From Acidobacteriota bacterium (GTDB lineage: Bacteria > Acidobacteriota > Blastocatellia > Pyrinomonadales > Pyrinomonadaceae), in NCBI GenBank assembly GCA_003222895.1, contig QHXI01000048.1, positions 1 to 64,000 of the forward strand: 64,000 nt of DNA. Reading direction: 5' to 3'. This document shows, piece after piece, positions 23,501 to 29,575 of this stretch (the first letter of the stretch is position 1; every line of letters starts with the position of its first letter). The notes under the pieces are model-generated. The model saw only the letters and a list, made by a program, of their open reading frames with translations, made no database searches and had not been told where the DNA came from. The translations under genes and the position numbers were made by a program.

Positions 23501-23598
23501 TAATCCTTTTTAGCCCTCAGGAACAATATCTCGTCTTCTTTGTCTAACGGCATAGCTTCTCGACCCGAATGGCACCGGCAAAACAGAGAGGAGCTAAG

Positions 23599-24405
23599 AT
23601 GTTTACCAACTTAATCGAATCTCAGTCGCATGCGCGAGAGTTCAAGCGTCGCAGTTCGTTCTTTCTAATCACCGTCGCAGCTTACGCGGTGATTCTGTTC
23701 GCCGCCGGCATCGTCAGCGTTTACGCCTACGATGCGCAATTGGAAGCGCAGACGAATGACTTGGAATTGCTGAATTGGGTTCCGCCCATTACGCGCGAAG
23801 CGCCGAAGCCGATTCGCGAAAATCATCCGCAACCGCTCCATCGAGCACCTCCGAGCGCGCCGGTTGACCGGCGTATCGACGTTCCAATCAGGACGGAAGC
23901 TGTTGCTTCAACGAACGATCCGACAAAAGTCCCAGCCATCGTTGGCACTGCGGGCTTGCCTATTCCTCCCGTAACCGGACCATTTCGATTGGGTGATCGA
24001 AATGTGGATCCGCCGGCGCTGCCAAATAGCTCGGACGCATGCGTCACCTGTAACACAGAGCCGCCGCGCGTAAAAGTTGAAGACAAACCGCCTGAACCGG
24101 TCCCGGCAAAACCGCCGACTACACAGAGAGTCCCTTCGAGTGTGTTGATTTCTAAAGTGATCAGTTTGCCACAGCCGACCTATCCGGTGATGGCTAAACA
24201 AACAGGGACACACGGCTCGGTAACTGTACAGATTCTGGTGGATGAACAAGGGAAAGTGATTTCGGCACAGACTGTATCGGGGCATCCGTTTCTTAGCGTG
24301 GCTGCCAAGGAAGCCGCGCTGCGGGCACGCTTTACGCCGACGATTCTGAATGGAGTACCAGTTAAGATTCAGGGAGTGATTACTTACAATTTTGTGATGC
24401 AGTGA
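23599..24405 (+). CDS. TonB-family energy transducer
   Basis: About 268 residues: one N-terminal membrane helix (about 20-40, SSFFLITVAAYAVILFAAGI), a long proline-rich periplasmic stretch (70-180) and a C-terminal TonB domain (VISLPQPTYPVMAKQTGTHG onward, ending VITYNFVMQ). It would couple inner-membrane energy to outer-membrane receptors. No ExbB/ExbD is nearby. The ATG at 23599 is preceded by GAGAGGAG; an upstream ATG at 23569 is possible but unsupported. Confidence 0.85.
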   Translation: MFTNLIESQSHAREFKRRSSFFLITVAAYAVILFAAGIVSVYAYDAQLEAQTNDLELLNWVPPITREAPKPIRENHPQPLHRAPPSAPVDRRIDVPIRTEAVASTNDPTKVPAIVGTAGLPIPPVTGPFRLGDRNVDPPALPNSSDACVTCNTEPPRVKVEDKPPEPVPAKPPTTQRVPSSVLISKVISLPQPTYPVMAKQTGTHGSVTVQILVDEQGKVISAQTVSGHPFLSVAAKEAALRARFTPTILNGVPVKIQGVITYNFVMQ

Positions 24406-24434: not shown

Positions 24435-25565
24435 CTATTCTAGTCTTCTGTGATCGATGCGCGCTGAGGACTGTCGTCGCCGCCAGAATACTGCGTCAGC
24501 CCAGTTCTGCGGGACGCCGTATATTCGCAACCGTTGTTCTAGATAATCATTAAATCGCGCAGTGGCCTGTTGCATCCAAACCGGAATTGTCCGGAAGTCA
24601 GGTTGTCCGCCAATCAGCCATTGCGCAATCTCGACTCCCGAATTTAGAGCGGCGACCACCCCGCGTCCACAAAGCGGATCAAGGGCCATTAACGCGTCCC
24701 CTGCGGCAACGCAGCCTTGAGAGATAGCGATCTTTCGAATACTCGATCTGGCGTCGAATGTTTTCCAGCAATGCATATTCAACTGATCTTCAAGAAATGG
24801 ACAGCGTTCCCGCGTTTGGTAACTCATGTACAACTGAGTCTTGAGGAAAGCGGCGATATTTGATCTTCCCGGTGGCAATAGATCGGCGTCGGTAAAGAAA
24901 ATCGCCAGGCCCTTATCGCCTGGAAGAAAGACTGAGTACCACCAGCCGTGCTGTGCCGACTCTACCAGCGCCGAACTGCTGGGCCGAAACGATGAAGTAT
25001 CGTCGCAGAGAATAGCCAGCCCCACCAATCGGTCCAGCCAAAGTCTTGAGCCGTGCGTTGAGAATTGCGACTTTGAAGTTCTGCCGGTAGCCTCTACTAC
25101 GATCGGCGCGGTCGCCGGCAAGGCGGCCTGACCAGAGACAATCGAGAAATGCCAACGTCCGGCTCGACGATCAACTCCCCTTAACCGCGAGTTTCGAAAC
25201 AAAGAGACTCCTGCTGCACCCGCATTTTCAAAGAGCGCTCGATCGAAAGCCCGACGGTCGACGCACCAACCTCGACCATGGGGATTGAGGATGCTGGGAC
25301 GACTTTGGATCGTCGAGTCTTTCCAAACCGAGGCTACGCCATCAGATTGAAGGCCCCAGTCAGCGACTCCGTTCAGGGAGATTCCCAAACACGCCAACAC
25401 TGAACTGATGGAGGCTTCAAGGGTCTCTCCGATTCGGAACCTGGCGAAATTACTAGCCTCGACGATCGCCGCGCGGGCACCGGATCGAGCAAGCAAAGTT
25501 GCACAGGCGCTGCCCGCAGGTCCACCACCAACTATCAAGACGTCGAAATCAGTTCCCCGTTGCAT
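24435..25565 (-). CDS. lodB: LodB-like FAD-dependent oxidoreductase (CTQ maturation)
   Basis: A 376-residue flavoprotein with the dinucleotide motif VLIVGGGPAGSACATLLARSG at the N-terminus and the FRIGETL segment typical of halogenase/geranylgeranyl reductase-like monooxygenases; GDALMALDPLCGRG is the second FAD motif. It begins three bases after the stop of a LodA-like gene. In Marinomonas the flavoprotein LodB is required to form the cysteine tryptophylquinone of LodA, so the same role is inferred here. Confidence 0.82.
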   Translation of the reverse strand: MQRGTDFDVLIVGGGPAGSACATLLARSGARAAIVEASNFARFRIGETLEASISSVLACLGISLNGVADWGLQSDGVASVWKDSTIQSRPSILNPHGRGWCVDRRAFDRALFENAGAAGVSLFRNSRLRGVDRRAGRWHFSIVSGQAALPATAPIVVEATGRTSKSQFSTHGSRLWLDRLVGLAILCDDTSSFRPSSSALVESAQHGWWYSVFLPGDKGLAIFFTDADLLPPGRSNIAAFLKTQLYMSYQTRERCPFLEDQLNMHCWKTFDARSSIRKIAISQGCVAAGDALMALDPLCGRGVVAALNSGVEIAQWLIGGQPDFRTIPVWMQQATARFNDYLEQRLRIYGVPQNWADAVFWRRRQSSARIDHRRLE

Positions 25566-25568
25566 GCT

Positions 25569-27014
25569 TCATACAAATTGGATGGTCGGGGCGCGCTGAT
25601 CCTCGGCAAAGACAATGTTTCCCTGGGCATCCCGTTGGGCTGTGATGAAGCCCAATCTCGAAAAATTATTGATCATGCCGATATGGCTGCTGACTCCACG
25701 TTCCCAGCGAACTGTTGTCGTCGCATTTGGATTGGCACGAACGTCGTCGGGGCGTTGTGACGGCCACCAGCCGCGGAGGCAATCGTTGAAGTCGGCCTGC
25801 CAAGGCACCGCCATGAGGGACGTCAGATCTCCTGGCTGGGCTTGGCCGTGATCCAGACGGAAATCGAATGGGGTGCTGTAAAGAGTAGGATCCTTTGCGA
25901 GGATGCCCCCTTCGATTCCAGGGAAAAAACCCTGGCCGACAGTCGAATCAAGCGCAGCACGAGTTAGTCCATCAGCGGTCACGTTATTTCCGGGTTGCGG
26001 GACGCCAGTCCAATCGGAAAGAAAGTTTCCCGCCTCCCACTTGTCCAAGTAGGACTTCTGCAGGCTCGTCAGCGAGTAGTCCGAAAGCACTGATTCAATA
26101 TTCCGTACCGCGTCCGCACTATTAGTGCGCAGTTGGCTTGCCGCCCCAGAGGTGTCAGCCAACACAGGCCAATTGTCACTAACATCGCTCCAGGTTGGCT
26201 TGTTATTTACCCAACGAAGCTGGCGAGTGCGCTGCAAGACTGGAAAGACGTGATTGGTGAAAGAAACATGCGCCGGCGGCTGAACCCCGAAATTATCGAC
26301 CGCAACTTGCAGGATGATGTCATACAGCGTAACCACGCCTTGGATTGCCGGCGCGAAATCCGGTGGCGCCACGATCACCCAAGCAGGTGCGATGTTGGCG
26401 ATCGTGGTCCCATCTGATAAGCGAATACGCGCCGTGATTGGACCGTCTGAAACGTCATCATGCCAACCCGGGTTTGTATAAAAATCCGGAAGTGGCGCGG
26501 TGTTTGGTGATGAAGAAAAGCCGAATCCCCCCAAGACCAACAAGTTTTGCTGCTGGTCTGTACGGATTTCGCCGAGAGGCACGCGGCGATTTAGGAATTC
26601 ACCTGTGTCGAATTTCACCGCAGCGGCATTGGCGCCGGCGATTGTTTGCGCTTTCGGATCGATCAGCCGATCCGCCGAGTTAGGAACCGGTTGTGGGCGG
26701 GTAGGCTGCGCGGGAGGCACAGATCCCCTTATGACCGCGCCTTTCTTATTGACGAGATGAACGGTCCACTCCACGGTTGCGCCTGCCGGCAGATTTATAG
26801 GGCGCGGAGCGGTGTTGGCATCCGGAATTTCAAAAATGCGGAACCGGGCGGCTTGCCGCTTAATCTGATCTTCATCAACCTTGTATTCTTGAACTGGCGT
26901 CTGCCCGTCAGATTCGAACCCCGGATGTCCAGGGATCTCCGGCCCTATGTAAAATTGGTTCAAATCATTTCCAATTCGTGCAATGCCAATTGGGGGATAA
27001 ATCTGATATTGCAT
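25569..27014 (-). CDS. LodA/GoxA-like cysteine-tryptophylquinone oxidase
   Basis: About 481 residues, well short of the roughly 700-800 of characterised LodA and GoxA. The N-terminus YPPIGIARIGND and the C-terminal MAVPWQADFNDC / WWPSQRPDD blocks are hallmarks of the family. C412 is the expected cofactor cysteine; candidate partner tryptophans are W416/W417 and W437. ATG at 27012-27014 is chosen because AGGAG precedes it; the frame extends 54 codons upstream through the previous gene's end. Known members oxidise the epsilon amine of lysine or glycine; the substrate here is unknown. Confidence 0.85.
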   Translation of the reverse strand: MQYQIYPPIGIARIGNDLNQFYIGPEIPGHPGFESDGQTPVQEYKVDEDQIKRQAARFRIFEIPDANTAPRPINLPAGATVEWTVHLVNKKGAVIRGSVPPAQPTRPQPVPNSADRLIDPKAQTIAGANAAAVKFDTGEFLNRRVPLGEIRTDQQQNLLVLGGFGFSSSPNTAPLPDFYTNPGWHDDVSDGPITARIRLSDGTTIANIAPAWVIVAPPDFAPAIQGVVTLYDIILQVAVDNFGVQPPAHVSFTNHVFPVLQRTRQLRWVNNKPTWSDVSDNWPVLADTSGAASQLRTNSADAVRNIESVLSDYSLTSLQKSYLDKWEAGNFLSDWTGVPQPGNNVTADGLTRAALDSTVGQGFFPGIEGGILAKDPTLYSTPFDFRLDHGQAQPGDLTSLMAVPWQADFNDCLRGWWPSQRPDDVRANPNATTTVRWERGVSSHIGMINNFSRLGFITAQRDAQGNIVFAEDQRAPTIQFV

Positions 27015-27058
27015 TTCGTGCTCCTTTCGAATCGTGTAATCGTTAAGCTGATTGACCC

Positions 27059-28636
27059 TCACGGTTGTAATTGCGCCAATAGATCCAAAAACTCTTTGAG
27101 GTTTCCAGTGGGTACTCCTGTCCCATGAGTTTGATCGATTTCCAGACCAGGAAAAATTCGATCTTGCGGCATCCACTTCTCCGATTGACTGATGTTCACA
27201 ACTCGGCCGGGAATCTGTCCCCGATATCCTGATACAGCTTCCCGATCAAAGACGTTGTAGACCACCGAACTATGGCAGCGGTAACAGTACCGATTGAGGT
27301 AATAAAGAATCTTGCGATGCGACTGGTCACCAGGCTCCCACAATTGATTTCCAAACCCTCGCTGATAGGGCGGCACATGCGCGGTCCCGGAGTTTCCAGG
27401 GCTGTGCAGGTTAAGCCACTTGTTAACTGCATTGAGCTGAAAATTATCAGGATCACTTATTCGTTGGTTCTGGTCTCGAATATCCTCGTTGAGGAGCCTA
27501 ATAACATCGAAGGCTTTCTGGAATTTTCCAGGATCCCTTGCTCCATCGAAGATTACGTCATAGGGCGCACTCGCCAGCGCCGTGAAATCTTCCTCCTTAA
27601 ACTTCGGGTCGCTTAGGCCGTAATCCGGCGTTACGCGATCAATCCAGTGATCGGTATCGAGATAGTTTGCCTTTCCGCGGCTCTTGTCTGCCCCGTGGCA
27701 CTGAAGGCACGAATCCGGTACGAAATAATCCTTCGGCGCCAGGTTCGTTTCTGGATCTCGTCCATCGAATGTGGCCTGTAAACTGAATGAGATTTTTCCG
27801 TCGTCCGCAAAATTGCCGTTGGCATCCTTGATGGGCTGGCCGGTATTCTTGTCGATCTTAATCAATTCGCTATAGGCAAAGAAGTACGCGGCTCGTTTTG
27901 CGGGGCTGAATTCTCCTTCCTTTCGGGTCACAATTACCTGATTGAATCTCGAGACGTTCCGATCAATGTCAAATGGATTTCCGGCAACCGTTTTTTCAAA
28001 AATATTTTGCAGAAACAGTAGCAGGTCCATTCCATTCTTCGCCGCCAGCGAACCGGCTTTGGCTTTTAACCGAACCAACTTTCGCCAGCCGAAACCACTC
28101 GCTGGAATGAGTGTTGGTTCCGTCGCTACCGCAGTGATTTTCGGCGCGAAAAATCGCGTGGCCAGAATGTCGCCTGGGGGGGAGAGTTTCATGATCTCAT
28201 CTGAGGACAGGCGATGCAGATCTTTTGGTGTGACGCCGGGATAACCAAAATACTCAAGCAAATCCTTGATTGACGAGCCCAGGATCGTGTCAGGCGTGAG
28301 AAATCCAATTTGCGGCGAGACCGTTTGCCGATAATAGTTTTTGGCCCCGTCTTCATTTCCCTCCACAACTTGAAACCTTACTAACTGGAAAGCGGATCCG
28401 TTAATGCTCCGCCGGACATGGGCCAGTGGTAGTTCTGCCGGATTCAAGCCCGCCTTCATGGGAGTAGGTGAAGGCTGACCACCGGAACCTCGAGTTGAGC
28501 GATCTCGACGAAGGCACCAAAACAGAAGGATGATTACGACCAGCAACAAAGTGCAGGCAAGAATCAGAAGGAGGCGATCTTTCGGACCGAAAGGTTTGTA
28601 GCCACGTTCGGGTTCGGGCTTATCGTTGTAAGTCAT
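27059..28636 (-). CDS. Membrane-anchored diheme cytochrome c-like protein
   Basis: A 525-residue protein with one N-terminal membrane helix (about 24-42) after a short basic cytosolic tail, then a large periplasmic part. Two heme-attachment motifs are visible: CLQCH (about residue 310) and CYRCH (about 450). No close named family is recognised. Its stop is 45 bases before the LodA-like start, so the genes are probably co-transcribed. It may accept electrons from the CTQ enzyme, or act in its maturation as MauG-type diheme proteins do for tryptophan tryptophylquinone. Confidence 0.78.
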   Translation of the reverse strand: MTYNDKPEPERGYKPFGPKDRLLLILACTLLLVVIILLFWCLRRDRSTRGSGGQPSPTPMKAGLNPAELPLAHVRRSINGSAFQLVRFQVVEGNEDGAKNYYRQTVSPQIGFLTPDTILGSSIKDLLEYFGYPGVTPKDLHRLSSDEIMKLSPPGDILATRFFAPKITAVATEPTLIPASGFGWRKLVRLKAKAGSLAAKNGMDLLLFLQNIFEKTVAGNPFDIDRNVSRFNQVIVTRKEGEFSPAKRAAYFFAYSELIKIDKNTGQPIKDANGNFADDGKISFSLQATFDGRDPETNLAPKDYFVPDSCLQCHGADKSRGKANYLDTDHWIDRVTPDYGLSDPKFKEEDFTALASAPYDVIFDGARDPGKFQKAFDVIRLLNEDIRDQNQRISDPDNFQLNAVNKWLNLHSPGNSGTAHVPPYQRGFGNQLWEPGDQSHRKILYYLNRYCYRCHSSVVYNVFDREAVSGYRGQIPGRVVNISQSEKWMPQDRIFPGLEIDQTHGTGVPTGNLKEFLDLLAQLQP

Positions 28637-28677
28637 AATCGCTGCTTCCTTTCAATCCGAACTCAGGCGAGAGGATC

Positions 28678-29397
28678 TCAAGTGACGATTTGAGCGTCAA
28701 AACGATCCAAGATCGGCCGTAGCGGACTAACGAACGTGCGAGGTCCCGCACCTCCGATTATTAATCCGATCGGACTACTGCTTAACGCATCAACTACCAG
28801 AGCGCCAGAGTCTCCGCCTACCGAGAAGTCGCCTTCTCCGCATCCGGTAATCTGAACCACGTTCTGGAACAGGTACTCCTCGCCATCAAACGTGAAAGTA
28901 GTTTCTGCCGCTACATCAGTAACGACGCCCAGCGTGTGCCCGGTGCCCGCACCGTATTTTCTTACGCTTTGAAAAAGTACCGGCTCCATCACCGCGGAGC
29001 GCACTTGTCCAATTACCGGCAACACCGGCTCGATGTCGGCCTTGCGGTTAACCCGCGCAATGGCCGCATCAAAACGATTCGGCACGCCATCAGGCTTGAG
29101 AGGTTCGAAGTCCGTGAGTGTCGCGATCGGGGTTGCCGAGCCGTCTGGTGCAGCGGGTTCCACGATCTGGTCCCCTGGCGTCGCGACGCCATTCGGCGAG
29201 AGAACATGTGACGCCGACAAAATGAACCATGCTTCATCCGCAGAACGTGAGACGATACAACCCAGCGATCCGGCTTTGCCGCTGACATGACTGATGGAAG
29301 CTGCCAAAGCCACCGGCCGGGCCTGAAGCCTCAATCCGCCAATCGGAATCAAGATCGCCAGTGAAAGCTTGCTTAGTCTCTTTGGCACCGAATCCAA
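28678..29397 (-). CDS. Trypsin-like serine peptidase domain (likely frameshifted gene)
   Basis: The catalytic triad of an S1-like peptidase is visible: His in LSASHVLSP, Asp in FDAAIARV and Ser in VGGDSGALVV. The first codons of this frame (MDSVPKRLSKL) are an out-of-frame reading of NVIGIGFGAKETK in the upstream frame, so the annotated ATG is not a natural start; the true N-terminus is in 29340-29575. Proteins of this type usually carry about 50 more residues between the two parts. The gene heads the LodA-like cluster. Confidence 0.65.
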   Translation of the reverse strand: MDSVPKRLSKLSLAILIPIGGLRLQARPVALAASISHVSGKAGSLGCIVSRSADEAWFILSASHVLSPNGVATPGDQIVEPAAPDGSATPIATLTDFEPLKPDGVPNRFDAAIARVNRKADIEPVLPVIGQVRSAVMEPVLFQSVRKYGAGTGHTLGVVTDVAAETTFTFDGEEYLFQNVVQITGCGEGDFSVGGDSGALVVDALSSSPIGLIIGGAGPRTFVSPLRPILDRFDAQIVT

Positions 29398-29575
29398 TGC
29401 CGATCACGTTTGCTGCTCGGAGGAGTTGACGGGCGGACTGAAATGCCGCTGACAACCGCAAAGGCCGTTGCGAGACATTCGTTTGTGCCAGCAGCTGCGT
29501 CAGGACTTCTCTATTATGATGCCTCACCCCACATAGCGAGTCGGGCGAGACCTTTAAGCTTTTGAAGTTCACCAT
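29340..29575 (-). pseudogene. N-terminal fragment of the trypsin-like peptidase, separated by a frameshift
   Basis: Starts at ATG 29573-29575 (MVNFKSLKVSPD). It carries RQLLRAANVIGIGFGAKETK and TGDL, the short N-terminal domain that precedes trypsin-like domains in a family with sequences like NVVGVGxGxK. The family would continue 'TGxLAIxI'; here the LAILI part is in the other frame, showing an indel near 29355-29365, probably with loss of some codons. A sequencing or assembly error could also explain it. Confidence 0.55.

Follow-up and report, generated by a model that had tools for sequence, protein, structure and literature searches.

To our knowledge, the LodA-like enzymes that have been characterised are oxidases that reduce O2 and make peroxide. 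The type example is LodA/LodB, the L-lysine epsilon-oxidase of Marinomonas mediterranea (3weu, 2ymw), in which LodA is a protein of 726 aa. A second is GoxA/GoxB, a glycine oxidase (structure 6byw, from Pseudoalteromonas luteoviolacea), in which GoxA is a protein of 816 aa. Quinohemoprotein amine dehydrogenase (QhpA/B/C, with QhpD and QhpG) is alike in having CTQ together with two c-type hemes, and in needing a flavoprotein for its CTQ. Here, CTQ can reduce a diheme cytochrome.

Published LodA loci include ferritin-like genes, tyrosinases, and catalase-like fusions, and a short LodA protein of 481 aa, from Amycolatopsis balhimycina, was already listed in 2015 (PMC4417212). A further paper (PMC12605379) was set aside, since its glycine oxidase is an FAD enzyme.

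The locus described here lies in an Acidobacteriota genome, on the minus strand of a window of 64,000 nucleotides, this being the whole stretch of DNA that was analysed. Read 5' to 3', the strand carries a four-gene cassette whose products are a trypsin-like protein, a protein that is anchored in the membrane and bears two CXXCH sites (called DHC below), a LodA-like protein, and a flavoprotein of the LodB kind. The original prediction placed these four genes on one strand with small gaps, and there they are, with 41 bases between the trypsin-like and DHC genes, 44 between the DHC gene and lodA, and 3 between lodA and lodB. These gaps fit a single transcript, and a stop codon closes each of the four frames. 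A search for promoters and terminators at the cassette gave signals no better than those in shuffled sequence, and base composition gave no signal of foreign origin (GC 0.537 vs 0.543). Beyond lodB, on the plus strand, a TonB-like gene (23569-24405) converges on the cluster; upstream of the cluster, at 30-32 kb, are genes that, by eye, are DNA-ligase-like.

The LodA-like protein (25569..27014, minus strand; 481 aa) is shown by sequence and fold to belong to the LodA/GoxA superfamily, as its predicted identity implied. Its start is the ATG at 27014, with GAAAGGAG upstream; a longer open reading frame, to 27176, runs into the DHC gene. Both Pfam models are passed, LodA_N with 188.8 bits (cut-off 26.3) and LodA_C with 86.8 bits (cut-off 25). 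The AlphaFold model has a pLDDT of 90.3, and Foldseek returns LodA (3wev) as its best match, then GoxA. The "equivalog" models of NCBIfam are not reached, with 180.6 bits for LodA against a cut-off of 600, and 197.1 bits for GoxA against 750. With scores so far below both cut-offs, the substrate cannot be inferred.

Alignment to LodA and GoxA, made with phmmer and with a profile of 29 sequences, places C412 on LodA C516, and W416-W417 on LodA W580-W581. Thus, the predicted CTQ pair is C412-W417. C412 had been picked out beforehand, with nearby tryptophans as candidate partners; the cysteine holds, and the tryptophan is narrowed to W417. C412, W416, W417, and D408 are invariant in 29 short LodA sequences, and D408 corresponds to an Asp that has been considered in tryptophylquinone enzymes (PMC7876137). 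The window protein therefore has in common with LodA the LodA_N and LodA_C domains, the Cys/Trp pair, the Asp, and the fold; with GoxA it has in common the superfamily and the fold.

The differences lie in size and in the surroundings of the cofactor. Cys and Trp are separated by 5 residues here, by 65 in LodA, and by 15 in GoxA (Cys682-Trp697), the insertion between them being reduced in the window protein. This spacing is, of course, not peculiar to the window, being common among short LodA relatives. The A. balhimycina protein and those of loci L029 and L043-L053 are of the same size class, and the latter have the same compact cofactor motif. The residue aligned with what we take to be Cys448 of LodA, and with His583 of GoxA, is Phe364, and the cofactor surroundings are therefore unlike those of both characterised oxidases. 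Another Phe, F178, falls near the position of GoxA F316 (the numbering of H583 and F316 is that of the PDB titles). No export signal was found on the LodA-like protein, whose highest 19-residue hydropathy is 1.52, whereas Marinomonas GoxA has a Tat signal.

The LodB/GoxB-like FAD protein (24435..25565, minus strand; 376 aa) is the putative CTQ maturase, adjoining lodA as had been predicted. The NCBIfam LodB and GoxB profiles span the entire protein, with 187 bits for maturase_LodB (whole model), 170 for GoxB, and 134 for QhpG, all below the equivalog cut-offs. An adjacent lodB-like gene is common to this locus and to that of LodA; unlike the latter, the cassette adds the genes for DHC and the trypsin-like protein.

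The trypsin-like serine peptidase (28678..29397, minus strand; 239 aa, with an uncertain TTG start) matches Nal1_C weakly and the phrog_20754 protease profile at 3.4e-26. Its likely triad, assigned by motif, is H64/D110/S197. The trypsin-like part is what it has in common with rice NARROW LEAF 1, for which the match is weak, and with the phrog_20754 proteases, although the N-terminal third of their profile is here missing or out of frame. Upstream, in a second frame, a 113-aa open reading frame (29234..29575, minus strand) holds NVIGIGFGAKETKQAFTGDL and resembles, by eye, the N-terminal domain of the trypsin-like gene. It is perhaps the frame-shifted N-terminal part of that gene; searches gave it no convincing family match. 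Such a frameshift would lie near 29350 and could be either genuine or introduced by the assembly. The trypsin-like gene of the original prediction is present, but its frame is open only from ~29397, and the part from there to 29575 belongs to another frame.

DHC (27059..28636, minus strand; 525 aa) has the anatomy that was predicted for it. It begins with one strong hydrophobic segment, a presumed helix (mean Kyte-Doolittle 3.24 at residue 22), followed by ~260 residues of unknown domain, and then by CXXCH sites at C310-H314 and C451-H455, ~140 residues apart. Homologues were found in L042, L066, L131, and L028. Across five DHC homologues the CXXCH pair is kept, together with NYLDTDxW, FFAPKI, GWRKL, and MPQxR motifs. 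Their N-termini, as read from the sequences, are a signal, a lipoprotein-like signal, or an anchor, and the heme part should therefore face the periplasm. Two CXXCH sites in an apparently exported protein, as DHC and its homologues have them, are the mark of a putative c-type diheme cytochrome. AlphaFold, with three sequences, gave a pLDDT of 38, too low for a fold search. As this leaves no usable structure, heme binding by DHC is inferred from CXXCH.

No Pfam model is over its cut-off for DHC, and no PDB chain matches its profile. DHC is like MauG and the bacterial diheme cytochrome c peroxidases in having two CXXCH sites, but the CCP_MauG profile found no match up to E 5 in five DHC members. 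The same five gave no Pfam or PDB match to the diheme alpha subunit of quinohemoprotein amine dehydrogenase, an enzyme to whose known families DHC has no detectable homology; the model for QhpC, the gamma subunit, reached 11.4 bits against a cut-off of 25. Assignments of DHC as MauG/CCP, as the alpha subunit just named, or as Tll0287-like were rejected for want of a supported match, and cytochrome P460 was rejected at an hhalign probability of 11 to 20%. DHC is, as its motifs read, a rare and undescribed family with two putative c-heme sites.

A LodA-alignment scan of genome contigs gave 79 loci. In one of these, L042, the trypsin-like, DHC, LodA, and LodB genes stand in an order identical to that of the window. 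The LodA proteins are 65% identical, the trypsin-like proteins 55-56% (with the triad conserved), the DHC proteins 54%, and the LodB proteins 42%. The flanks are unrelated, 0/17 of the window's flanking open reading frames being matched in L042. In the LodA tree, the two are sisters with support of 99. Since they come from different phyla, we infer that the cassette moved between phyla as a unit. Recurrence of a four-gene order in another phylum is not chance, and therefore DHC probably works together with the LodA-like enzyme. L042 is from an environmental MAG labelled Asaia bogorensis (Pseudomonadota); the species name is doubtful.

Conserved linkage of DHC with lodA in relatives, which the original prediction proposed to look for, is thus found in the same order in L042 and more loosely in L066. 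The latter is a MAG of Pyrinomonadaceae, the family of the window genome, where a DHC 34% identical to that of the window lies 2.5 kb upstream of lodA, and a ferritin-like gene stands immediately before lodA. This makes three linked cases in total, one of them loose.

DHC is rare elsewhere. Of 40 LodA-bearing genomes that were searched in full, 2 have it (those of L042 and L066) and 38 lack it. It is found in 1/396 sampled genomes of the window genome's phylum (its own), in 3/119 genomes of its order, and, among 385 genomes of L042's class, only in that of L042, apart from one marginal partial match. Searches run without a positive control found it in 0/239 genomes from a Xanthobacter's order and in 0/219 from a Polyangium's phylum; none was found in viral contigs. 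Comparing 2/79 LodA loci with 0/779 sampled genomes gives a Fisher p of 0.008, a rough figure, as its units are mixed. DHC is also found without LodA: near a tyrosinase in L131, from a genome of the window genome's order (90% complete) that shows no LodA, and on pSymA of S. meliloti, a plasmid without LodA. Therefore DHC is not exclusive to LodA, and in those two places must function without it. DHC is thus an uncommon redox module, sometimes linked to LodA but not one of its fixed subunits.

What stands beside lodA in close relatives is also informative. Short LodA proteins mostly have a ferritin-like gene as neighbour, whereas the window has DHC. In the 17-row LodA clade that holds the window, a ferritin-like gene is by lodA in 14 rows (called as PF12902 in L066, and elsewhere as homologues of the L066 gene), and L043 has a tyrosinase instead. 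The window and L042 have neither, with DHC and the trypsin-like gene in their stead. As these alternate beside lodA, the partner position seems to be occupied by alternative metal or heme proteins.

The preferred reading, to which we give a probability of about 0.5, is that the locus is a mobile CTQ amine or amino-acid oxidase cassette, matured by LodB, in which DHC is an accessory redox partner and not a maturase. Here, a horizontally mobile set of four genes would encode a compact oxidase of the LodA/GoxA superfamily. Its own LodB flavoprotein would, by homology, mature it; C412 and W417 would be joined to CTQ, with D408 nearby; and the amine substrate would be deaminated via a Schiff base on CTQ, as in LodA and GoxA. 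DHC would act on the turnover side, most likely accepting electrons from the quinoprotein step or handling its peroxide, in a place that close relatives give either to a ferritin-like protein or to a tyrosinase, the swap of genes itself being observed. The trypsin-like peptidase would be a co-inherited part of the cassette.

These two roles for DHC can be stated more narrowly, as specific forms of the same accessory-partner explanation. A cytochrome-linked dehydrogenase, one of the two suggestions of the original prediction, would pass electrons directly from reduced CTQ to the DHC hemes and from there into the respiratory chain, with O2 serving poorly as acceptor. Quinohemoprotein amine dehydrogenase is the precedent, tight lodA-DHC adjacency is conserved in two phyla, and Phe364 replaces the Cys or His of the known oxidases. 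However, Phe or Tyr is found at position 364 in 29/29 short LodA sequences, nearly all without DHC, and the occurrence of DHC without LodA speaks against an obligate pair. Further, the attachment of c-type hemes takes place outside the cytoplasm, and contact between a LodA-like protein without an export signal and a DHC with presumably periplasmic hemes cannot be taken for granted; direct electron transfer would require the former to be exported or released. Marinomonas LodA occurs extracellularly without a classical signal, so the missing signal here is not fatal. The dehydrogenase is possible, if doubtful, and is offered as a fair hypothesis, not a result; that quinohemoprotein amine dehydrogenases arose a second time, independently, as a LodB-matured LodA-fold enzyme passing electrons to DHC, is unlikely. 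The pattern of swapped partners would be explained equally well by electron transfer and by a DHC that handles peroxide. In the latter case DHC would remove or use the H2O2 of the oxidase in the manner of a peroxidase, replacing the ferritin-like gene that adjoins other lodA genes, or the catalase-like domain fused to other LodA proteins (PMC4417212). That DHC matches no bacterial CCP/MauG model weighs against this, and it too is an improbable outcome.

Two further explanations take DHC away from turnover altogether. It might oxidise a LodA precursor to CTQ, since TTQ is matured by a diheme protein, MauG (PMC7876137), and heme-based maturation was one suggestion of the original prediction. It is rejected here, because LodB is present (LodB and GoxB do the CTQ maturation in LodA and GoxA; PMC7876137) and because LodA relatives mostly lack DHC, in 38/40 genomes; with no MauG/CCP homology in DHC, it is very improbable indeed. 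Alternatively, DHC and the trypsin-like gene might hitch-hike with lodA-lodB and act in another process. DHC does, of course, occur without LodA in two places, and tight recurrence of the cassette is seen once only. Nevertheless, the order is kept across phyla at 42 to 65% protein identity between unrelated flanks, and hitch-hiking seems an unlikely account.

The cassette is, then, a genuine variation on LodA, rare yet conserved, whose diheme-type partner is undescribed. The conserved, transferable pairing makes a respiratory-dehydrogenase role of the LodA fold directly testable, and likewise the alternative that the fold has been given a heme partner as a guard against its own peroxide. With its compact Cys-Trp motif, the protein also offers a small LodA core in which cofactor biogenesis can be studied.

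Some neighbouring observations may be recorded. L131:9183-14614 is a possible operon of a tyrosinase, a 106-aa protein, an unannotated 609-aa protein (by eye, outer-membrane-barrel-like), DHC, and a 107-aa protein; L066:1698-5543 has a similar set, with a 587-aa protein, DHC, and a small protein. The 107-aa protein also has homologues close to lodA, at L046:7867 (Pseudonocardia) and L052:8295, the latter in a MAG labelled Rhodococcus that its tree label places with Cyanobacteriota. The window genome has a second LodA-like gene (G000:C10:13216-15051; L037:7971-10052), encoding 694 aa with a Cys-Trp distance of 34, and accompanied by a LodB and an upstream 694-aa tyrosinase. The N-terminal part of this tyrosinase resembles the 107-aa protein beside DHC in L131 and L066.
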